Of a DNA stretch of 64,000 nucleotides, positions 37,173 through 53,609 are shown piece by piece (position 1 is the stretch's first letter; each line of letters begins with the position of its first letter). Source of the stretch: Picocystis sp. L7. Lineage: Eukaryota; Chlorophyta; Picocystophyceae; Picocystales; Picocystaceae. Both the position numbers and the translations under genes were made by a program. The notes beneath the pieces were generated by a model, which saw only the letters and a list, made by a program, of their open reading frames with translations, made no database searches and was not told where the DNA came from. Where the stretch lies: contig QXJR01000003.1 of NCBI GenBank assembly GCA_020975725.1, positions 1,178,001-1,242,000 of the forward strand. The letters run 5' to 3'.

Positions 37173-38693
37173 TCAAAATTTTACTTGACGTCTGAAAATG
37201 TTCACCTCCTCGTCTTGGATTGCAGCTACCTCTTTGGGTGTATCCTTTAATTCTGCTAGCATCAGACCTTCCATCAAAATGTCGATGCATGCTCTCGAAA
37301 CGGCCCGATAAAGGCCTTCACCGGTGAAACCACCAGCACCGAATTCGTAGCACAACACAAGTCGCTTGTGGTGTTCGAAACAAGTGATAAAGACACCTTC
37401 CTTCGTGCTCACCATTTGGGCCAGTTGCATGTTGAGCGCGTTGAGGTTGCAGCCCACAACGCTGCCCTTCGGTCCAAACCAGCCGGAGAGGGTAAAGGTG
37501 ACAACTTGCCCAGCCTCCCTCCTGCCACGTAGTCTCACATCATTCGCGAGCATAGCCAGAAAGCAAGACGCCTCATCTGACAAAGGTTGGGCTATGGACT
37601 TCAAGTCTGCTGCTTGGCAAAGCATCTCAATCAGGTGTTCCAACCATTCCTTGTCGAGGTTTCGGCCAATAAGCACGAGAAATATCCCACATGTGTACGA
37701 GGATGGGAAATTTCTCTGCATACAGCGCTTCGATGTGTACCGTGCACCACAAAGATGCACCTCAAATAAACTGTCTTTCATCGATGAGAACCGCACAAAA
37801 CCTTTCATGCGGACCACAGTGGCTGGCAGTGCTGACAAGAACGCTTGGAAGCCGTACAGACTGGGCAGGACAGCCCGCGTCGCAGAAATGGAGCAAAATC
37901 CATCATCATGCAGATGTGTACTCTTTGGTATTTGGCTAGGCGAGTCTATTGTGTGCGTGCATTCTGTTGCGCGGTGGCATTCATTTCTCTTGTCCGTAGG
38001 GTGTGGCAACTCGTGTTGGAGATTCTGTTTGGTGTGGAAGTGGGAATCCAAGTGAATGCCCGTGTGCATGATTAGGGAGAGTGAAACATTGCAATCCGTG
38101 CATTTGATCAGTCTAGGTTTTCGGAGCTTTTCGTAGAAGTACTCTTCCAAGGAATGCAGCCCGTCTTCTTTCACCAGATCCACCTTGTTCAGCAGGATCA
38201 CGTCCGCGGCTATAATCTGGTTCGCGAAGCACTTCATACCGAGCATGTCCTCTTGAAAGTTATCGCAGTCCACCACGGTGATGATGGAATCCAGGTAACA
38301 AAGGGACACCAGTGGCTGTTGTCTCAAGATAAGCACGATGGGTTCGGGGTCGGCGACTCCCGTCGTTTCAATGAGCAAGTATTCCGGCAAGTTTTCTCGA
38401 TTTCTGTCGAGCACGTCTTTCACTGCCTGAACCAGGTCGTCTTGCATGGTACAGCACACACATCCATTCGGCAGTCGCACGGCTTTGGTTCTTCCAGTGT
38501 TCCCTTCGACGAGCTGTCCGTCCACGTCCACGGCTCCGATTTCGTTGACGATGGCGGCCACTCGCGTCCCTCGGTCTGCCTTGCGCAGCACTTGGTTCAA
38601 GAGGGTCGTTTTCCCGCTCCCGAGGAATCCGGTGACCAGCATCACCGCCACGCGGTGCGCCTCTCGCTCTTCGGCCTCGTCGTCCGTCGCCAT
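37173..38693 (-). CDS. COG0523/CobW-like G3E GTPase (metal chaperone)
   Basis: 506 aa, ATG at 38693 (MATDDEAEEREAHRVAVMLV). G3E GTPase core: Walker A TGFLGSGKTTLLNQVL (about 20), the zinc-binding GCVCCT motif (about 80), Walker B/G3 LIETTGVADPEP and the base-binding LLNKVDL. The C-terminal CobW_C domain is recognisable (RMKGFVRFSSMKDSLFEVHL and LVLIGRNLDKEWLEHLIE). Between them lies a His/Cys-rich insert (MHTGIHLDSHFHTKQNLQHE...HPTDKRNECHRATECTHT) that could bind metal, as His-rich linkers do in this family. COG0523 proteins such as ZNG1 insert zinc or cobalt into client enzymes. Without an experimental anchor the metal is unknown. Its start is 31 bp from the minisatellite that borders the Harbinger element. 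Confidence 0.88.
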   Translation of the reverse strand: MATDDEAEEREAHRVAVMLVTGFLGSGKTTLLNQVLRKADRGTRVAAIVNEIGAVDVDGQLVEGNTGRTKAVRLPNGCVCCTMQDDLVQAVKDVLDRNRENLPEYLLIETTGVADPEPIVLILRQQPLVSLCYLDSIITVVDCDNFQEDMLGMKCFANQIIAADVILLNKVDLVKEDGLHSLEEYFYEKLRKPRLIKCTDCNVSLSLIMHTGIHLDSHFHTKQNLQHELPHPTDKRNECHRATECTHTIDSPSQIPKSTHLHDDGFCSISATRAVLPSLYGFQAFLSALPATVVRMKGFVRFSSMKDSLFEVHLCGARYTSKRCMQRNFPSSYTCGIFLVLIGRNLDKEWLEHLIEMLCQAADLKSIAQPLSDEASCFLAMLANDVRLRGRREAGQVVTFTLSGWFGPKGSVVGCNLNALNMQLAQMVSTKEGVFITCFEHHKRLVLCYEFGAGGFTGEGLYRAVSRACIDILMEGLMLAELKDTPKEVAAIQDEEVNIFRRQVKF

Positions 38694-38723
38694 CGCGCTT
38701 CCGCTCTCCTCCCACGCCACTCG

Positions 38724-38748
38724 AGAAGAAACTCCCTCTCCCTCCCGG
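38724..38748. repeat. Left remnant (half unit) of the 50-bp minisatellite
   Basis: 25 bp identical in sequence and phase to the 50-bp unit of the array at 42623. It ends in CGG, immediately followed by the transposon. Joined to the right flank without the transposon it gives a perfect unit. Confidence 0.9.
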
Positions 38749-38766
38749 AGCCCTATTCACATGTCA
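38749..38766 (+). repeat. Harbinger left terminal inverted repeat
   Basis: 18 bp, perfect inverse of 42605-42622. Beyond 18 bp the two ends are similar only in being G-rich (GGGGAA-type text). Confidence 0.92.
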
Positions 38767-39295
38767 CCCGACCTCGGGGAAAGCAGGGGAAGCGGGGAAG
38801 CCGGGGAAGCCAAATGATCCCCCGAGGTTTCCTCCACGCATTCGTGCGAATATTTCGTAAATAAAACCCGAACATCCCTTCCGGGGCGATCGAAAAACGA
38901 GGCTCCCCGTTGAGGGAATTCCCGCTTCCCACCGGCCCCGGACCCGGGGGACCAGGGAACCACGGGGGGTGGCAAGGGACCTGAAATGGGACCCTTCACG
39001 AAGAGATTTTGAGGGAGGGCACCTACGAAGGGAAAACGTAACACGCAGAGGATTTTGGACCTCGGGGGAAGCAGGGAAACCTCGGGGAAACGGGGAATGG
39101 CGGTACACGATTCGGTCTCGAAAATGATACAGGGTTTGAGGGACAGGTACGGTTTCCGAACCGCGATACCCGTGGAGGAGCGTCGTGCGAAAGATCCTCC
39201 GAGTTTGAGGGGCGCAGACAGGTTTGACGCAAGCGCGCGCGACGATCGCGTTCGAAACAACGAAAGACAAGCTATCTGTGCCCATCGACCCAACA

Positions 39296-40806
39296 ATGCC
39301 TGCGACGCAAGCTGCGTCGTCCTGCTTCTACCGACTGAGAGGGAAAGTGATCATCCGCATCGGTGGATCAGAGCTCGTAACGGCGCTAGAATGCGTTTGC
39401 AAGCGACAGGAGGAGTGCATCCAATGCGGAGTTTGCGGACGACGCTTCCACTCTTCTTGCGACGAACACATTCGAGACGAGCGAACTCCGTACGGTATGA
39501 CTACAGAGGATGGAAGTTCGAAGGATCCCACGCCCGCCTGCCCTTCGCCTCCTGCTGTCGTGGGAGACACAGCGTCCCAAGTCGTCGCACCTGCGATCAT
39601 GTGTTTCCCATGTCAACATGGTGATAGAGTCGAGTAAGTCGAATTCTTGCCTTCAACGCGCGTACTGTCATCTCCTGTGACACATTGAACTGACCGTGCA
39701 TTGGTCGAATGCTCCGCTCGACATCTAGTCTTTCGTTCGATAGCGCACAACTGGGCTCCAAGTTGCGCCTGCGACCTCCGAAGGGAGTCACTTTCAAAGT
39801 GCGCGCTGTTTGGGAAAATGAATGGACGTCGGCCTTCATCAAATTGAGAGGTCTAGAATTGGCTGGAGAATTCGACGTGTCGAAAGGGAAGCACATGGAC
39901 GTTGGCTGGCGAAAGGTGAGGCAAGCAATGTGCCGCAAACTTGGCGAAAGCGCTCCTTGGTTCATTCGTGGCGGTCCGCTGTTCGATGAATTTTGCGTCG
40001 AACACAACGTCGACAAGGATGCATACCTAGAGGAAGTGTTCAAGGCAAAGGGAACGGAGAAATGGAAGTACCTGCAAGAGGTATACAAGGAAAAGAAGCG
40101 CAGAACAGTTACAACTGTGGACGAGGAGGGCAACGTCGTCACCAAACAAGCCAATTGCACTGGTGAGCAGCAATTGGACGACATCTACTGGATCTTCTTC
40201 GACGAGATGCAGCAAGTCCTGCGCAACAAGCCATCCGTATGCCCACCAGCAGGCATTGTCTTGCAGACACGGGCTCCATTTGACAATTCTGACAAAGCAC
40301 CGATGGGTGGCGTGCATGGTGATGGACAGGACGATGCACCGTTCACGGACATTCTATCCAACGATGCCAGTCCTACCACATACAAAACCTGTGAGAACGA
40401 ACGCAACAAACGGTCAGCACGTGATGACGAGGCCGACAGCCCACAGCGTCCACAGATGCCTACATCCAAGAAAGGAAGACGACCAAGTAGTGCTGACCGA
40501 CGACATGAGAAGATGCTCTCATCCATGCTGGAGCAGTCTAGTACAGTCAATGAAACTCTTGGAACTATCAAAACATCTATTACCGAGATGCACAAGCAAC
40601 TTCAGACATCAGATTCGGAGAAGCTCGTGATTGAGCGTGCTCAGAAAATACAGAGGGATTGGGATGAATTGTTTGCATTTTACTGCACCCAACAAGTCCC
40701 ACACGATGTCATCATCCAGCAACTTGGACCACGGCCCTCCAAGGCAGAAGCTATACAAGAAGCCTTGTCTTGGCAAGAGTCACTAAGGCAAACATGTCAA
40801 CCGTGA
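39296..40806 (+). CDS. Harbinger accessory protein: PHD-like finger + SANT/Myb-like domain
   Basis: Exons 39296-39633 and 39729-40806, intron 95 nt (GTAAGTC...ATCTAG), 471 aa. Exon 1 encodes a Cys/His cluster matching the C4HC3 PHD order: C-V-C, eight residues, C-GV-C, GRRF, H-SS-C, then a long loop and CFPC. The join GA|T continues the frame (DRVD then LSFDSAQLGSKL). Exon 2 carries a Myb/SANT-trihelix domain (VWENEWTSAFIKLRGLELAG, then DVGWRKVRQAMCRKLGE), a possible nuclear signal (SKKGRRPSSADRRHEK) and a C-terminal coiled coil. In this superfamily the SANT protein binds the transposon ends and recruits the nuclease. The exon 1/2 join is inferred; a shorter protein starting at 39709 is the alternative. 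Confidence 0.78.
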
Positions 40807-40860
40807 TGTTATCATACCATGCCCAATCTGCATCCAGCAACCTACCTGCGTGTTAAGATT

Positions 40861-42337
40861 CTACCTGTTCCTTGGTCTACGGACTGGTCGCTCCTGTTGA
40901 AAAAAGAAATCGGTCAGCCCCTGTTTGATCTGCACCGCACTCTCCAACATGTCTTGAGCCACTGCTTCTTGAGGTTGTACCCCTTCTCGATCCCCCAACT
41001 CCACAACCCCTTCTGCCCATTCCTGCATGAAGGCATCGCCCTCCTGCCCAAGAAAGTTGTGCAACACCATTGCTGCAAGGATAGACTCTGCACAGGTTCT
41101 CCATGCCGTTCTGTGAGTCCCCAATAGCAATCTGAACCTGCCTTTCAACCGACCAAATGCATGCTCAACAACCACCCTAGCTGAACTGTGGATCCAATTG
41201 AACCTCCTTTCTGCACTTGTCGCTGCCAAATTATCTCCTTTGTAGGGGGTCATCTGCCACGTCTCCATCCCGAATGCAGAATCTGCGAGAACCAAAGGTG
41301 GGACATGCAATGTTGCAAGGTGCCCCATTCTGTCCAAATACTCCAAGTCCTTGTAGAGCGTCGGATATTGCAGTAGCAAACCATTCTATAAATGATGACA
41401 GGAAGCAGAACAATCAAAAGGCACACATAGTCAGTGGTAGTCGATGCAGCACGCTGTCGTCCCGTCGTTGTGTGTCACCTACCTGTAGAAGCTTCGTGAA
41501 CTCCATTTCTTTGATAACCCCACCATCTGCAGATGAACCTGCCCAACCACATAAAACAGCCCTGAACATCCCACTTCCATCTACGTACGCCATATTATTA
41601 AGGGAGTAGAACCCTTTATAACATATGAAATCCTGCAGGCCAAGGTTTTGGTCAGCCAACTCCACTTTCACGTGACATCCATCCACAGCAAGGCAAGCGT
41701 TCGGAAATCCTCTCCGGGAAAAACTCTGGATGCACGCCTCAATTTCTGCACGGGTGGTGGGCATTCGTATAAAACGGTCCTGCATTTTGCAAATGGCTAC
41801 TATCCCCCTTGTGTAGCATTTGTGGGCAGTGGAAATGCCAATGGCGAAGCTCTCACTCAGTTTCAAGTAACTTGTTCCATGGGCCAGACGCATGAGAGTG
41901 AGAGTGAGAGTCCGCTTTGGTGACATGAAGTCCCCCCTAGCATTTGCAGCTGGCTGCAAGTCTCTACGTACTAGACGTAATAAGACTCGAAAGCTCTCCT
42001 TACTCATCCGCAAGAGCCGCTTGAAGGCGACATCCGTCGTTCGTTCGCTGAACAACTCGTAAAAGTTGTTCTGCGCCCTCCTCTCCTTCCAACATGCGCG
42101 GCCCCTCCCGTAACCTCCTTGCGCAAAGACGAGCCTCCTCGCAAGATGCTGGGCTACCTCAGTACATGCAACAGTTGCTTCTATCACATGGTTGAGCAGC
42201 ACCAACCTTTCGCGTGTTCGTTTGCGTCGTTCGACGTCGTCCCTCTCCATCCTCGTCGCCCTCATGCTCGTCCATGCACGGAAGGCTCCCTCTCCCAAAC
42301 CCGCATCCCCCATTTGTTCGCGTTCGGCACCATCCAT
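40861..42337 (-). CDS. Harbinger DDE transposase (two exons)
   Basis: Exons 42337-41483 and 41385-40861; the intron is 97 nt (GTAGGTG...TTTATAG). The join restores TKLLQ followed by NGLLLQYPTLYKDLEYLDRM. 459 aa, ATG at 42337 (MDGAEREQMGDAGLGEGAF). Catalytic triad of the DDE_Tnp_4/Harbinger type: first Asp in NACLAVDGCHVKV, second in LVLADSAFGM, Glu in RVVVEHAFGRLKGRFRLL. Upstream is the usual helical region (SERTTDVAFKRLLRMSKESF, and LAHGTSYLKLSESFAIGIST before HKC). No damage is visible, so the element may still be able to encode its nuclease. Confidence 0.93.
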
Positions 42338-42604
42338 GCGTGCTGTGCCTGGGAAGAGCGCCGCCTTGTTGTTCGTCTTCCGCAAATCTGCGACAACCCT
42401 AAACGCAGAAACCACTAGTCACTCCCCTCGTACGTGGCAGACACGCGCGAGGTCCTCCGGACTCGGATGGATCCGAGGCACACGTCCACGTCCCTCGAGA
42501 ATTCCATCGAATATTCGGTTCACGAACTCGGTTCGCCATCCGGGTCAAATGTTACCTGTGAATGCCCAGAACCCTTCCCCCTTCCCCCGATTCCCCTCGG
42601 CCCT

Positions 42605-42622
42605 TGACATGTGAATAGGGCT
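42605..42622 (-). repeat. Harbinger right terminal inverted repeat
   Basis: 18 bp, perfect inverse of the left end, followed directly by the CGG target duplication and the main minisatellite array. Confidence 0.92.
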
Positions 42623-43812
42623 CGGGGGTCCCCCAAAGGGGACGAGGGAGAGAAGAAACTCCCGCTCCCTCCCGGGGGTCCCCCAAAGGGGACGAGGGAG
42701 AGAAGAAACTCCCGCTCCCTCCCGGGGGTCCCCCAAAGGGGACGAGGGAGAGAAGAAACTCCCTCTCCCTCCCGGGGGTCCCCCAAAGGGGACGAGGGAG
42801 AGAAGAAACTCCCGCTCCCTCCCGGGGGTCCCCCGAAGGGGACGAGGGAGAGAAGAAACTCCCTCTCCCTCCCGGGGGTCCCCCAAAGGGGACGAGGGAG
42901 AGAAGAAACTCCCGCTCCCTCCCGGGGGTCCCCCAAAGGGGACGAGGGAGAGAAGAAACTCCCTCTCCCTCCCGGGGGTCCCCCAAAGGGGACGAGGGAG
43001 AGAAGAAACTCCCGCTCCCTCCCGGGGGTCCCCCAAAGGGGACGAGGGAGAGAAGAAACTCCCTCTCCCTCCCGGGGGTCCCCCAAAGGGGACGAGGGAG
43101 AGAAGAAACTCCCGCTCCCTCCCGGGGGTCCCCCAAAGGGGACGAGGGAGAGAAGAAACTCCCTCTCCCTCCCGGGGGTCCCCCAAAGGGGACGAGGGAG
43201 AGAAGAAACTCCCGCTCCCTCCCGGGGGTCCCCCGAAGGGGACGAGGGAGAGAAGAAACTCCCTCTCCCTCCCGGGGGTCCCCCAAAGGGGACGAGGGAG
43301 AGAAGAAACTCCCGCTCCCTCCCGGGGGTCCCCCAAAGGGGACGAGGGAGAGAAGAAACTCCCGCTCCCTCCCGGGGGTCCCCCAAAGGGGACGAGGGAG
43401 AGAAGAAACTCCCGCTCCCTCCCGGGGGTCCCCCAAAGGGGACGAGGGAGAGAAGAAACTCCCGCTCCCTCCCGGGGGTCCCCCAAAGGGGACGAGGGAG
43501 AGAAGAAACTCCCGCTCCCTCCCGGGGGTCCCCCAAAGGGGACGAGGGAGAGAAGAAACTCCCTCTCCCTCCCGGGGGTCCCCCAAAGGGGACGAGGGAG
43601 AGAAGAAACTCCCGCTCCCTCCCGGGGGTCCCCCAAAGGGGACGAGGGAGAGAAGAAACTCCCGCTCCCTCCCGGGGGTCCCCCAAAGGGGAAGAGGGAG
43701 AGAAGAAACTCCCGCTCCCTCCCGGGGGTCCCCCAAAGGGGACGAGGGAGAGAAGAAACTCCCACTTCCTCCCGGGGGTCCCCCAAAGGGGACGAGGGAG
43801 AGAAGAAACTCC
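42623..43812. repeat. 50-bp minisatellite array, about 24 units
   Basis: Unit of exactly 50 bp containing the palindrome GGGGGTCCCCC, then AAAGGGGACGAGGGAGAGAA and a CT-rich stretch. Units are nearly identical. The main variable base (CTCCCGCTCCC or CTCCCTCTCCC) alternates regularly from about 42710 to 43310, a 100-bp higher-order period. A second variant (CCCCGAAGG for CCCCAAAGG) occurs at 42831 and again exactly 400 bp later at 43231. The array lies in the divergent region between the COG0523 gene and Twinkle, ending 48 bp before the Twinkle ATG. Because 50 is not a multiple of 3, stop-free frames repeat every 150 nt; the long open frames here are products of the repeat. Confidence 0.97.
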
Positions 43813-43859: not shown

Positions 43860-46004
43860 ATGGCCACGCCATTCCGTCGCACATCCGCGCATCGCGAGGC
43901 GCCTGGAAAAGGGATGGCGGCGGCGCGCTTGGCGCTGCGACGTGCCTGGAAGAGACCCTGGACGACGAGGTTACCCCTGCTGCGCATCCCACCGCACGCA
44001 GCCGCCAAGTCCGACGACGCAGCCGCGTCGGAAGAGCCGCCACGAAGCCAACTCGTCGAGGCGCGCAGCGCGGCGCTTCCGACGCTTGGAACGCCGCTGA
44101 GGGACCAGCTCGAGGCGCGCGGCGTCGTGCTTCGGACCTACAAGGGCGGGCAACACCGTGCGGTGTGTCCCCAGTGCGGAGGTGGAAGCCAAAAGGAGCT
44201 CTCCTTGTCCATCCACATCGACGCAGATGGACAAGGCGCAACCTGGAACTGCTTTCGAGCGCGTTGCGGATGGTCTGGCGCGGTGGGAAGGCGATCGAAC
44301 GGTGATACGGAGACCTCAAGCGGAAACGGAGGAGCCAACGGATCCGTCGCCCACGACAAGAAGTTCCGAGACGTGGGCATGACCGCACGCAAACCCGAAG
44401 TGCCGGTGCAACGGCCCAAGGTGAACTTTCAACCGCCGAGTGCAAAAGTGATGCAGTTCTTCCGAGGAAGGAGCATACCTGAAACCGTGGTGGAAAGAAA
44501 CGGTGTGATGCAAGAAAAGTGCTTCTCACCCGCCACAGGAAGAGAAGAACTGGCCATCGCCTTCCCATATCGAAGGAACGGAGAACTCATCAGTGTCAAA
44601 TACCGTGGACCGAGGAAATCGTTCTGGCAAAGCAAGAACTGCGAAAAGATCTTCTATGGATTGGACGATATCAAAGGACAAAAAGAAATCATCGTCGTTG
44701 AAGGTGAACTCGACAAACTCGCGCTCGAAGTGGCTGGATACACCAACGTCGTGTCCGTCCCCGACGGCGCACCGAGAAAAGCCAAGGAGGACGAGATGCT
44801 GCCACCACCAGAAGAAGACACCAAATTCAGCTACCTTTGGAATTGCAGAGAATACCTCGACCATGTGGAAAAAGTCGTGTTGGCCACCGACAGCGACGAA
44901 CCAGGACAAGCGCTGGCCGAAGAGCTCTCTAGAAGGCTTGGCAAAGAGAGATGCTGGAAGGTCAGATGGACGGCCGAGAAAGGCCGCGCCGTGACAGGTG
45001 AAACCAGCGAGGAACAAGAAAATGTGGAGCCAATCGAGGGCGTTGGGACCTCAGCCAAACCTCCCAAAGATGCGAACGATCTGCTCCGCTTGGAAGGGCC
45101 TGATGCGGTGAAAGAGTGTATACGGAACGCGGAGCCGTATCCCATACGTGGGCTGTTTCGATTTACCGATTTCTACGACGAGATAGAATCGTACTATTCC
45201 TTGACCCTTGGTGAAGAAATGGGTGTTTCAACGGGGTGGAACGGCGTGGACGAGGTGTACAAGGTTGTGCCGGGGGAACTGACTGTGGTCACCGGGGTGC
45301 CCAATTCAGGAAAGTCGGAATGGATAGATGCTCTCATGGTCAATCTTGCTGAGGACCATGGTTGGTCCTTTGCTCTCTGCAGCATGGAGAACAAAGTGAG
45401 GGACCATGCCCGCAAATTGATAGAGAAGCGGGTTCGAGCTCCCTTCTTCGACGCGCCGTACGGTCAAAGCAGGAGGCGGATGTCCCGGGAGAGTCTAGCA
45501 GAGGGAGTTGGCTGGCTGGATGACCACTTTCACTTGATTCGATACGAGGACGATCAGTTGCCGTCAGTGGACTGGGTTCTGAACCTTGCCCGCTCAGCCG
45601 TGTTGCGATTTGGAATCAGGGGGCTGGTGATAGACCCGTACAATGAATTGGACCACCAACGACCGCAAAATATGTCCGAAACAGAGTATGTATCCCAGAT
45701 GATCACCAAAATAAAGAGATTTGCACAGCACCACGATTGCCATGTTTGGTTCGTTGCACACCCCAGGATCATGCGTGGTTGGCAGGGAGAGGCCCCAAAC
45801 TTGTACGACATTTCTGGCAGCGCACATTTTATCAACAAGTGCGACAATGGATTGGTTGTGCACAGAAGCAGGAGACCAGAAGATGGGGCTCCAGATGAAG
45901 TGCAAATTCTACTTCGAAAAGTTAGGAATAAAGCCTCTGGTAGGATTGGGGACACCAGATTGCGGTACGATCTCACGACAGGAAGGTACAGTGATCTTTA
46001 TTGA
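43860..46004 (+). CDS. TWINKLE: Organellar Twinkle-type primase-helicase
   Basis: T7 gp4-like enzyme that primes and unwinds organelle DNA. 714 aa, ATG at 43860 (MATPFRRTSAHREAPGKGMA). The first 60 residues are Arg/Ala-rich without acids until about 52, a plausible mitochondrial or plastid targeting peptide. Primase zinc finger: C103-x2-C106 and C131-x4-C136 (VCPQCGGG, CFRARCGW). TOPRIM domain: IIVVEGELDKLALEVAGYTN (from about 276) and ATDSDEPGQAL. Helicase: Walker A GVPNSGKSEW (about 478), then IRGLVIDPYNELDHQRP and HVWFVAHPR. The zinc finger is kept, as in plant and protist Twinkle but not in animal Twinkle, so primase activity is likely. Its stop is 16 bp from that of PRMT5. Confidence 0.95.
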   Translation: MATPFRRTSAHREAPGKGMAAARLALRRAWKRPWTTRLPLLRIPPHAAAKSDDAAASEEPPRSQLVEARSAALPTLGTPLRDQLEARGVVLRTYKGGQHRAVCPQCGGGSQKELSLSIHIDADGQGATWNCFRARCGWSGAVGRRSNGDTETSSGNGGANGSVAHDKKFRDVGMTARKPEVPVQRPKVNFQPPSAKVMQFFRGRSIPETVVERNGVMQEKCFSPATGREELAIAFPYRRNGELISVKYRGPRKSFWQSKNCEKIFYGLDDIKGQKEIIVVEGELDKLALEVAGYTNVVSVPDGAPRKAKEDEMLPPPEEDTKFSYLWNCREYLDHVEKVVLATDSDEPGQALAEELSRRLGKERCWKVRWTAEKGRAVTGETSEEQENVEPIEGVGTSAKPPKDANDLLRLEGPDAVKECIRNAEPYPIRGLFRFTDFYDEIESYYSLTLGEEMGVSTGWNGVDEVYKVVPGELTVVTGVPNSGKSEWIDALMVNLAEDHGWSFALCSMENKVRDHARKLIEKRVRAPFFDAPYGQSRRRMSRESLAEGVGWLDDHFHLIRYEDDQLPSVDWVLNLARSAVLRFGIRGLVIDPYNELDHQRPQNMSETEYVSQMITKIKRFAQHHDCHVWFVAHPRIMRGWQGEAPNLYDISGSAHFINKCDNGLVVHRSRRPEDGAPDEVQILLRKVRNKASGRIGDTRLRYDLTTGRYSDLY

Positions 46005-46020: not shown

Positions 46021-47949
46021 TCAGCCATCAGGGGCAAGACCCACCCAGGAGGACCTGCCTCCAGGGTTGTGAACAGGCAGCACTTCAGGGCTCTGCACCA
46101 CCCATTCATACCACACTTTTGAAGGGCTTACGCACCGCCACATTCGCACAAGCAAGGGTTTGTCCTCCGCAATCTGAATAGGCCGAACCAGTGGGAAGAA
46201 AATGGGGAACCAGCTGTGCATGCCGTCTGTGTGATTGTCGGGGTGGGTGCTTAGGATCACGTTTTCGTATAGGACAGCAGTGAAATAGCCAGCGAAGCCA
46301 TGGCATAAAGTTGGCACGTCAGCATTGTGCGGCCAGAATACGTGCTCTGCTGCTCGTCTGTTGTCCTGTTCATTCAACAACGAAGGATGTCGGAAGGTGA
46401 AGGTTGCTTGGGCAGGTGCTATTCTGTAAATGCTGTGCAACTTGACCACATATGGCGTTTCATAGTTTTTCAGGCAATCAAACGCCTCGACCTTTTTGTA
46501 GATCTTACCAGCTGTGATTGGTTCTAAATAACTTGTGTAACACGAAGGGATTGACACTCCATCGTCCCGAAGGCACTTCTGTGCACCATCCAAGCATTCC
46601 GGTGAAAGTTCATTGTCTCCAAAGGAGCCAAGGAGTTCACTGACCAGCACATCCACCTTTTTCTGCATGTTCCAACATCGCATGTCTGTATTCACAAGGC
46701 TAACAATATTTCCCCAGCCTTGACTTTCAATAAGATGCTCGAGGGTAAGGACTGCATTGGGGTTCTTTTCTACCGCATACACCACAGAATCCACCCCAGC
46801 TTCTTTGCTTGCCATCACGCAAGCCCGCACAAGCGGACCGCGTCCAGCCCCAACCACAGCAAGGATCGCTTTTCTACCATTCGAATACCGATCGCTCCGA
46901 TCCTCCAGACACTTGACAATAGCTTCGTAGTATTGTTGGTATTTCACTTCGTCTTTCTCGAAAACTTCATAGGTGCCATTTTGGAGGTTGTCCATGAGAG
47001 GCTGCAGTGGAGTTTGCAGGTGATCTCTATAGTCTAATTCCAGAGCGTCCATTTCTATAGGTTCTGCATCTTGGTTGAACAGGAAGGCCAAGTACTCCAT
47101 ATAGTTGTGCAGAGGGTGTATTTGTGAAGACTCGTCCAGGTGCGTGCTTCGATGGAAGTGTATGATTGATTCTTGCAGGGTTAAGGCATAGTCTTCGGGT
47201 GCGACTGGATGCTTGCTTTCTCCGGTGAGGATCACTTGCACCTGGTGGTGGAAGCTCAGCTGCACGAGGTAGGCGTGCCTTTCTTGCAGTGCCGGGTATC
47301 CTGCATGGTTGGTTCGGAAGGCATTCGTTTCCAACAGGATGGCGTTGATGGGTTCACCCATCCACCGCTCCATGTCCTGCCTTCTAGGCGTCGTCGGCCC
47401 GACGCGCAGAGCGCAGCCCAGGTTTGGCGGTGCGTTGCACAAGGTCCTGACCTGGTGCCATTTTCCCCAAGCCTCGGATCCATGCCGATCCTTCGGGCTT
47501 GCTAGATCCACGCACATCCACACTTGCATGTGTCTGTGGCGCCGGAGGTGGTCCAACACGATCCTCGCGAGATTCGCAACCTTCGCACTTCCGTCTGGGA
47601 CGTGCACGAGCGCCGCCTGCAGTCCGAGGTAGACGCACCTCTCCAATTCCTCCTTCAGGTGCATCTCCTCTTCCCTTGCGCATGCATCCATGGATTCCTC
47701 CCTCTCCTTCTCTTCGTCCATCCACGGCCTCGATTGCGCGACCACGCGCGTCCTCCACGTATCGCATTCGATGCTGGCGTCGTCCGGATGCCACCTGTCG
47801 GCTTTCCCATCCTGCAGCGGCACGAGCACGAAGTCGAACCCGCCTCGCAGGCTCTCTTGCAGCACGTGAGCCAGCTGTCCATGTCCTGGACGCACAGAAA
47901 CGCCGAGGTATCGCGATTCTCCGCAGGAAGCGCGTTCGCCAAGCGGCAT
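46021..47949 (-). CDS. PRMT5: PRMT5, type II protein arginine methyltransferase
   Basis: Makes symmetric dimethylarginine on Sm proteins, histones and others. 642 aa (human 637), ATG at 47949 (MPLGERASCGESRYLGVSVR). N-terminal TIM-barrel-like domain starts GGFDFVLVPLQ and includes NAILLETNAF and PLHNYMEYLAFLFNQD. The SAM-binding GAGRGPLVRA and the double-E loop VSELLGSFGDNELSPECLDG are nearly identical to human (SELLGSFADNELSPECLDG). A beta-barrel domain follows (GYFTAVLYENVILS, MHSWFPIFFPL), with the C-terminal KVWYEWVV. A phenylalanine conserved in PRMT5 active sites lies in the KYQQYYEAI region as in plants. No MEP50 partner is in the window. Confidence 0.96.
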   Translation of the reverse strand: MPLGERASCGESRYLGVSVRPGHGQLAHVLQESLRGGFDFVLVPLQDGKADRWHPDDASIECDTWRTRVVAQSRPWMDEEKEREESMDACAREEEMHLKEELERCVYLGLQAALVHVPDGSAKVANLARIVLDHLRRHRHMQVWMCVDLASPKDRHGSEAWGKWHQVRTLCNAPPNLGCALRVGPTTPRRQDMERWMGEPINAILLETNAFRTNHAGYPALQERHAYLVQLSFHHQVQVILTGESKHPVAPEDYALTLQESIIHFHRSTHLDESSQIHPLHNYMEYLAFLFNQDAEPIEMDALELDYRDHLQTPLQPLMDNLQNGTYEVFEKDEVKYQQYYEAIVKCLEDRSDRYSNGRKAILAVVGAGRGPLVRACVMASKEAGVDSVVYAVEKNPNAVLTLEHLIESQGWGNIVSLVNTDMRCWNMQKKVDVLVSELLGSFGDNELSPECLDGAQKCLRDDGVSIPSCYTSYLEPITAGKIYKKVEAFDCLKNYETPYVVKLHSIYRIAPAQATFTFRHPSLLNEQDNRRAAEHVFWPHNADVPTLCHGFAGYFTAVLYENVILSTHPDNHTDGMHSWFPIFFPLVRPIQIAEDKPLLVRMWRCVSPSKVWYEWVVQSPEVLPVHNPGGRSSWVGLAPDG

Positions 47950-49023
47950 GTCGACACTTCCTTGTTCGCAATGGCGATGGGTCGACGATGTCCATCGGAC
48001 CCCTCCAAACCCGTGTGGAGGAGGAGAGTTGTGAGCCAGGAGGGAGTTCACAACCCACAAACCCCAGGGCGCAGGGGAGCGATGGGTGGCCGGTTGGGAC
48101 GGAACCAACCGACCCAACTACCACATGGAGCCTAGGAAGAGGACGGAGGGTGCTTGTGACGGTGGAACGGAGGACATGTTAGGGCTAGAAAAGACAGAGC
48201 AACCCCCACATCGGCCCGTCCATGGTTCAACGGTGGGTTGCCGTGGCAGTGTGTGCACGGAAACAACAAAGAACGCGGGCAAATGCAAGGTTGGCCGGCC
48301 TCAAAAGGTACGAAATGCAAATGCCAATCAAACCTTGCAGCAAGCATCGTGCTTTCAATCGTGTCTGACAAGAAGAACATAGCGTTGAGTTGCACCTTTC
48401 TGCCGTGTCCGTTGCTTTGGGACGCGGAGGGACGAGGAGCGGTTCGCTTTGCAGTACTTTTGGTCGAGGAGGACCCTTGATAGGGCGCATACCATCCCCA
48501 TCGATGAATCTTTCGTTTCAAAACCAATATTTCATGCGATGCCGATAAAACGGGACGTCTCCGCTGGACCGCAAAGACGCACGCCCCGTGGTCGTTCGCG
48601 AATGTGGTTGGTGACCATGGCATCCACGTGAGCCCCACCTCCCGTCTCGTCCACTCCTTGTTCTTGTATTCCCTCTTGACTTCGTTGTTCCGCAAATGTG
48701 GCGATGGATGGATTCAACGTCTCGCTTGGTGTATTCCCGTGCCTTGGCCTCTCCATTTGCTCTCGTGTCCTTCCATGGATGTGTTTTCTTGGATGGACAT
48801 GTCCTCCCAATCCCCCCCTCTTTTGCATGTGTACGTGCTTGCGTGTTTGTGTGTGTGGTTGGGGGGTGGTGCAAGTGCTTGAACATGGGTGTGGTCAAGC
48901 GTTTGAACCTGGGTTCTCACCTGTGTGGAGCACAAGGATTGGGGTGTGCTGGATGATAAGGTGTTGGATCGTAGGAGATCGAGAGACGACGAGAGAGACC
49001 TCGAGGACACACATACCGACGCG
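47950..49023. other. Divergent intergenic region PRMT5/epimerase, 1.07 kb
   Basis: GC-moderate spacer with a TG-rich patch near 48835-48895 (GTGTGTGTGGTTGGGGGGTG). Frames up to 187 codons (48132-48695, minus) have no recognisable domain. Nothing else seen. Confidence 0.4.
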
Positions 49024-52293: not shown

Positions 52294-52563
52294 CTTCCCT
52301 CTTCTCTCCTCTTCTCTCCTCTTGTTTCCTCTTCTCTTGTTTCCTCTTCTCTCCTCTTCTCTCCTCTTCTCTCCTCTTCTCTCCTCTTGTTTCCTCTTCT
52401 CCTCTTGTTTCCTCTTCTCTCCTCTTCTCTCCTCTTGTTTCCTCTTCGCCTCTTGTTTCCTCTTGTTTCCTCTTCTCTCCTCTTCGCTCCTCTTCTCTCC
52501 TCTTGTTTCCTCTTCTCCTCTTGTTTCCTCTTCTCTCCTCTTTTTTGCTTTTCTTTCCTGTTT
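52294..52563. repeat. Polypyrimidine tract of 10-bp units (CTTCTCTCCT / CTTGTTTCCT)
   Basis: About 270 bp almost purely C and T with scattered single G, built from the two 10-bp words in irregular order. It begins about 150 bp upstream of the hnRNP-Q-like start. Long homopurine/homopyrimidine mirror-like tracts can form triplex (H-) DNA; that is general knowledge, not shown here. Confidence 0.93.
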
Positions 52564-53289: not shown

Positions 53290-53609
53290 TGTGGGTGTGT
53301 GTGTGGGCAGGTGTGCAGGTGTGTGTGGGTGTGTGTGTGTGGATGTGCAGGTGTACGCGTGTGTGTGTGTGGATGTGCAGGTGTAGGCGTGTGTGGGTGT
53401 GGGTGTGTGGATGTGCAGGTGTAGGTGTGTATGGGTGTGGGTGTGTGGATGTGCAGGTGCAGGTGTAGGTGTGTGTGGGTGTGGGTGTGTGGATGTGTGG
53501 ATGTGTAGGTGTAGGTGTGTGGATGTAGGTGTGGATGTAGGTGCGGGTGTGCAGGTGTAGGTGTAGGTGTATGGATGTGCAGGTGTGGGTGTGTGTGAGT
53601 GTGGGGGTG
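53290..53609. repeat. TG-rich degenerate minisatellite upstream of TAF1
   Basis: About 320 bp of GTGTGTGGATGTGCAGGTGT-like words, period irregular (about 30-48 bp with TGGATGTGCAGGTG as the recurring core). It ends 54 bp before the TAF1 ATG chosen here. Alternating purine/pyrimidine text of this kind can adopt Z-DNA. Confidence 0.9.

Follow-up and report, generated by a model that had tools for sequence, protein, structure and literature searches.

A PHIS (Harbinger-like) transposon with a CNG-type target duplication in a 50-bp array between divergent genes of the alga Picocystis sp. L7

A transposon of the PHIS (Harbinger-like) superfamily, autonomous in appearance and of the cut-and-paste kind, with a target duplication (TSD) of CNG type, has almost certainly inserted in the first unit of an array of at least about two 50-bp units lying between two divergent genes. 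The insertion event itself is an ordinary transposon insertion; less common are the kind of target and the short distance to a gene start. The additions made here are a family with a CNG target in an alga, a corrected view of the adjacent promoters and a lead on nearness to gene starts. The window is the whole stretch of 64,000 nucleotides that was analysed (G000:C1:1178001-1242000), and it belongs to an assembly of 20.5 Mb in 30 contigs.

The element, its empty site and the array

The element and the array parts on its two sides are:

38749..42622, + strand: DNA transposon, PHIS (Harbinger-like) superfamily, 3874 bp, with 18-bp TIRs and a 3-bp TSD
38749..38766, + strand: left TIR, AGCCCTATTCACATGTCA, also seen at other copies
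42605..42622, - strand: right TIR, a perfect inverted match to the left TIR
38723..38748, no strand: left remnant (26 bp) of the first unit of 50 bp, agreeing with it except for one variant; its last three bases, 38746-38748, are CGG
42623..43812, no strand: right part of the array, beginning with CGG; TRF period 50, 23.8 copies, 98% matches

By sequence comparison the inverted ends agree over 18 bp with zero mismatches, and the 3-bp flank is CGG on the left (38746-38748) and CGG on the right. When the flanks are joined with a single CGG they give CCCTCTCCCTCCCGGGGGTCCCCC, which is a regular 50-bp unit with its five G. The sequence-only reading had proposed exactly this empty site, together with ends at 38749/42622, a length of 3874 bp, an 18-bp TIR and a CGG duplication; all of this is correct to the base, and the case is unusually clean. 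Only the left flank needs a small amendment, since it is indeed a partial 50-bp unit but starts at 38723 rather than 38724, being one base longer. Because the array provides a built-in empty site, no database is needed to place the ends and the duplication, and the wider family bears out what was already read there. A copy at C21:69142-73015 has identical ends and the same length (3874 bp; 56 substitutions and zero indels relative to the window copy), does not reach past 38749/42622, and lies in different flanks with the TSD GAG; since it shares ends and length in a different setting, a chance origin of the window element is excluded.

With the element removed, the array measures 1213 bp, that is 24 x 50 + 13, and carries GAGAAGAAACTCC at each edge, as would be expected had it arisen between short direct repeats by slippage or unequal exchange. 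The insertion point is in the first of the 24 units, 23 bp from one edge of the array. It had been claimed that the array existed before the insertion; this is weakly supported, for a minimum of about two units and not for 24. The segment of the left remnant from GAGAAGAAACTCC to CGG recurs, with variants, in full right-hand units, so about two or more units would have been present beforehand, a minimum that assumes zero exchange with an empty allele; the T variant of the remnant, at unit position 42, is common to 7 of the 23 full right-hand units. In a less probable history the array had only a few units at the time and expanded rightward later, so that what looks like insertion into an array would mainly reflect subsequent growth. 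The first unit would be struck by chance in about 1 of 24 cases if there were 24 equal units, and a double variant common to units 5 and 13 suggests block duplication, both of which speak for late expansion; against it stands the recurrence of the remnant segment on the right, which asks for about two units or more beforehand.

A four-unit query gave eight matches in the 20.5-Mb assembly, all inside the window array; this search skips very common words and other genomic arrays may escape it. The DNA of two units has a hairpin potential with z -1.82, and 12 of 200 shuffles fold equally well. An arrangement in which the array would lie within an inverted repeat of its own (CCACTCGAG and CTCGAGTGG at the edges) was considered and dropped, the outer bases being without a target duplication when inspected by eye.

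The proteins of the element and its affinities

The element carries two genes on opposite strands:

39296..39633, + strand: ORF1 exon 1, with a PHD-like zinc-finger motif (Pfam PHD E 0.012, below cut-off)
39729..40806, + strand: ORF1 exon 2, with a possible Myb/SANT-like region (relatives in alignment A2)
40861..41385, - strand: transposase exon 2, with E359 (DDE_Tnp_4 E 1.9e-16)
41483..42337, - strand: transposase exon 1, with D219 and D271 (DDE_Tnp_4 E 3.2e-6)

The transposase has 459 aa in total, its exons being separated by a GT-AG intron (41386-41482), and the catalytic triad D219/D271/E359 is present, the DDE being assigned by motif. ORF1 gives 471 aa from both exons, with a GT-AG intron (39634-39728) whose splice phase was checked. 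The PHD-like ligands C33, C44, H52 and C55 are invariant across seven aligned ORF1 members, a CFPC pair near the end of the finger is kept in all five members extending that far, and C35 of the pattern is variable (Ser in the C21 copy). Pfam PHD matches four of these seven members (best E 0.0017), the window protein remaining sub-threshold. For exon 2, Myb_DNA-bind_4 gives weak matches in 3 of 10 members (best E 0.0033) and zero profile match to a Myb domain in the window ORF1; a predicted structure of this exon had a mean pLDDT of 50, too poor for use. Comparison by sequence with solved structures gave no match for the transposase, four for ORF1 and one for alignment A2, all at chance level. 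The viral contigs searched held no relative, PHROGs returned a single weak transposase match, and Rfam had nil above gathering scores on the window.

Both reading frames are open in the window and C21 copies. Between these copies pN/pS is 0.10 for the transposase (6 synonymous, 2 nonsynonymous) and 0.27 for ORF1 (14 synonymous, 13 nonsynonymous, in a frame started 10 codons upstream of the ATG); such low values would fit constraint on both genes, with counts that are small.

The element is assigned to the PHIS (Harbinger-like) superfamily because it combines a DDE_Tnp_4 transposase with an ORF1 giving weak PHD-like and Myb/SANT-like signals. Its transposase has an intact DDE (triad by motif), its TIR measures 18 bp, and the 3-bp duplication usual in the superfamily is found in 10 of 10 both-ended elements; a second ORF with a Myb/SANT domain is a trait of several PHIS groups. 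The usual anatomy of Harbinger elements is described in PMC9179366. PHIS groups are defined by their target duplication, which is TWA in PIF/Harbinger and CWG in NuwaI; the latter is described as present in 16 animal genomes, and in animals only, with a TIR that usually starts GGG (Han et al. 2015, PMC4482050). The earlier identification of the element as Harbinger consequently stands in the broad sense of DDE_Tnp_4, but its CNG duplication is unlike the TWA of classical PIF/Harbinger. TWA occurs in none of the ten elements with both ends read, while seven have CWG, two more have another CNG and one has GAG. The GGG start usual in NuwaI is absent, AGCC standing at the ends of all ten.

As far as NuwaI is described in PMC4482050, the window family shares with it a DDE transposase with a separate ORF1, a 3-bp duplication, of CWG type in seven of the ten elements, and a size of about 4 kb; it differs in the broader CNG duplication (with one GAG), in the AGCC TIR, in its algal host, and in an ORF1 that has an additional PHD-like motif and just a weak Myb/SANT signal. 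With PIF/Harbinger sensu stricto (Ping/mPing, PIF), as presented in PMC2836001 and PMC4482050, it shares the DDE transposase, two proteins, a 3-bp duplication, a target preference reaching beyond the duplication and a first TIR base of A or G; there, however, the target is TWA and AT-rich, and here it is a GC-rich CNG. For mPing, two-protein transposition, precise excision and extended targets are reported (PMC2836001), and zebrafish Harbinger3_DR is likewise given there as a two-protein element, in a different host. Judged by element features, the target duplication of the window family resembles that of NuwaI rather than that of TWA PIF/Harbinger. A CNG target in a photosynthetic alga widens a target type that PMC4482050, in its account of NuwaI, found in animals only. 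The titles and abstracts of the open-licence Harbinger literature examined held neither a CNG/CWG group in algae nor an ORF1 with PHD-like and Myb parts.

The family and its target site

A search of the whole assembly with the 18-bp TIR, allowing up to 3 mismatches, gave 23 matches, against 3 for a reversed-pattern control. Sorted by eye from the adjoining sequence, 16 of them form eight pairs, two are single ends with family-like sequence on the inner side (C4:413306 and C21:465312) and five are chance-like, each with 3 mismatches. Three more relatives with both ends read were found via similarity (C3:44.8k, C6:843k, C7:235k), and one on C8 with only one end found. Equal 3-bp flanks are present in all ten both-ended elements (seven pairs and the three relatives). 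The remaining pair, at C14:1511-9864 (L027/L028), is a relative in a near-perfect inverted duplication near the end of contig C14; 2966 of 3018 positions of the inverted duplication are equal, and its target duplication is unreadable because the flanks are included. Two copies of 961 bp lack the middle of the element, at C1:610195-611155 (L015/L009) and C22:196164-197124 (L019/L020); they agree at 955 of 961 positions and have CAG and CCG duplications.

DDE_Tnp_4 matches in the assembly number at least 90 when each exon is counted on its own, and many have long open frames; the genome is rich in Harbinger-like elements, and the window element represents one family among many. At six places (L063-L068; C3, C11, C14, C21, C23, C27) another DDE_Tnp_4 gene adjoins tandem repeats with a period of 32 bp; the array exceeds 1.3 kb in the stretches inspected, and L065 lies in the opposite orientation. 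L066 and L067 are 100% identical across 2879 bp and divergent afterwards, and the six may represent a transposon carrying an internal minisatellite. The chlorophyll-binding family PF00504 has 18 matches in the assembly, and the one protein among them that was compared with solved structures resembles chlorophyll a/b proteins, which marks the host as a photosynthetic alga.

Nine of the ten TSDs are CNG: CTG in four, CAG in three, CCG in one and CGG in one (the window), the tenth being GAG. Outside this count, the ends at C4:413306, C14 and C8 adjoin CAG and that at C21:465312 adjoins TAG. We also considered that only 1 bp of CNG is duplicated and that the G/C belongs to a longer TIR; the GAG on either side of the C21 copy led us to drop this. 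Averaged over the sites, C predominates ahead of the TSD and G behind it, forming a pseudo-palindrome, with variation between sites. In Harbinger3_DR a CWG duplication lies within a longer palindromic target.

In leave-one-out matrices, 0 to 4.2% of sampled region positions outscore the individual sites. With the matrix built from the nine other sites, 126 of 60,105 positions score above the array site (top 0.2% of the region), and on this ground the insertion site matches the family target well. Positions scoring at least as high as the array site number 31 in the 1213-bp array, compared with 120 of 58,892 outside, and at half-widths 4-12 the array, with 2% of the length, accounts for 6-19% of the matrix weight (0.128 at half-width 4 and 0.188 at half-width 6). 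A complement-swapped control matrix gives array weights of 0.549 and 0.277 at half-widths 4 and 6, and of 0.017 and 0.022 at 9 and 12, with the insertion site scoring -13 to -18. Since the control, too, prefers the array at the two smallest half-widths (4 and 6), the array effect is partly one of plain GC-palindromic composition, and the array is a likely rather than a proven preferred target.

In the mechanism that we propose, the DDE transposase, probably with ORF1 as a partner, would cut a C-rich/CNG/G-rich pseudo-palindrome with 3-bp staggers, and gap repair would then duplicate the CGG. We infer that ORF1 is required, that the element may be active, and that the target sequence drew it to the array.

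Gene starts and the divided upstream region

The two neighbours of the array are:

37173..38693, - strand: ORF for a CobW-type GTPase (cobW E 5.9e-49), with its start codon 55 bp from the element
43860..46004, + strand: Toprim/DnaB_C gene (Toprim_4 E 1.2e-11, DnaB_C E 6.4e-10), a primase-helicase that we label Twinkle-like

The position between two divergent genes had been recognized in the sequence-only reading, and it is borne out. The same reading held that the gene promoters were left untouched, and this is not supported. At the empty site about 1289 bp separate start codon from start codon, and 1213 bp of them (94%) are array; the element begins 55 bp from the CobW start codon (54 bp when measured to the joined site), and the Twinkle-like start codon (43860) is 47 bp beyond the array end. 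The element therefore cuts the CobW gene off from almost everything that used to lie upstream of it, and the insertion, by start codons, divided the shared upstream region on the CobW side. That the array acted as a safe haven, the insertion having persisted since the repeats hold the element off the promoters, is very improbable: the insertion is intergenic and both adjacent reading frames are open with their domains kept, as such a haven would allow, but the array fills almost the whole interval and the CobW start is so close, and the copies on C21, C22 and C6 lie just 135, 20 and 123 bp upstream of long ORFs. No 50-bp array was seen near these three copies in the flank stretches inspected.

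We counted a copy as near a gene start when an ORF of at least 300 aa, pointing away from it, had its first ATG within 150 bp. Four of the ten both-ended copies qualify, next to genes for the CobW-type GTPase (54-55 bp, window), a protein kinase (135, C21), a TraB-type protein (20, C22) and an ABC transporter (123, C6). The C1 copy is 102 bp from the Met of an SDE2 ORF and was left uncounted because this ORF runs through the site. With ORFs of at least 200 aa the rule gives 6 of 10 (adding C1 and C3:44.8k), against 10% of positions. Among four single ends, scored on one flank, two are near a start (an RPOL_N-type RNA polymerase at 46 bp and a WbsX-type protein at 115 bp) and two are not. In the empty-site region the 300-aa rule is satisfied at 5.9% of all and 8.7% of non-ORF positions, from which 4 of 10 has P 0.0019 and 0.0079, respectively; the threshold was fixed post hoc, after the first cases were seen, and the null is one 60-kb region.

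These figures leave some room, if rather little, for promoter chromatin as the main guide to the target, the sequence palindrome coming second. The excess of near-start copies over background would agree with it, and the target motif alone enriches gene starts just 1.1- to 2.5-fold; the post hoc threshold and the single-region null count against it, as does a cruder null from cut flanks, which gives 28% and renders n=10 non-significant, and purging of harmful insertions could yield the same picture. More speculative, and in our judgement improbable, is an algal CNG-target PHIS branch that steers integration into the last 150 bp or so upstream of gene starts, the PHD-like finger of ORF1 tethering the complex to promoter nucleosomes and the array being hit as a divergent promoter region that repeats the target palindrome. 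Should more copies bear out the nearness to gene starts, the family could be used to test how promoters are found by two-protein transposons.

Further along the window, a PRMT5 gene (46021-48117, minus strand) adjoins the Twinkle-like gene, and a pyrimidine-rich array of 10-bp units (52298-52542) is followed about 750 bp on by a GT-rich array (53290-53609).
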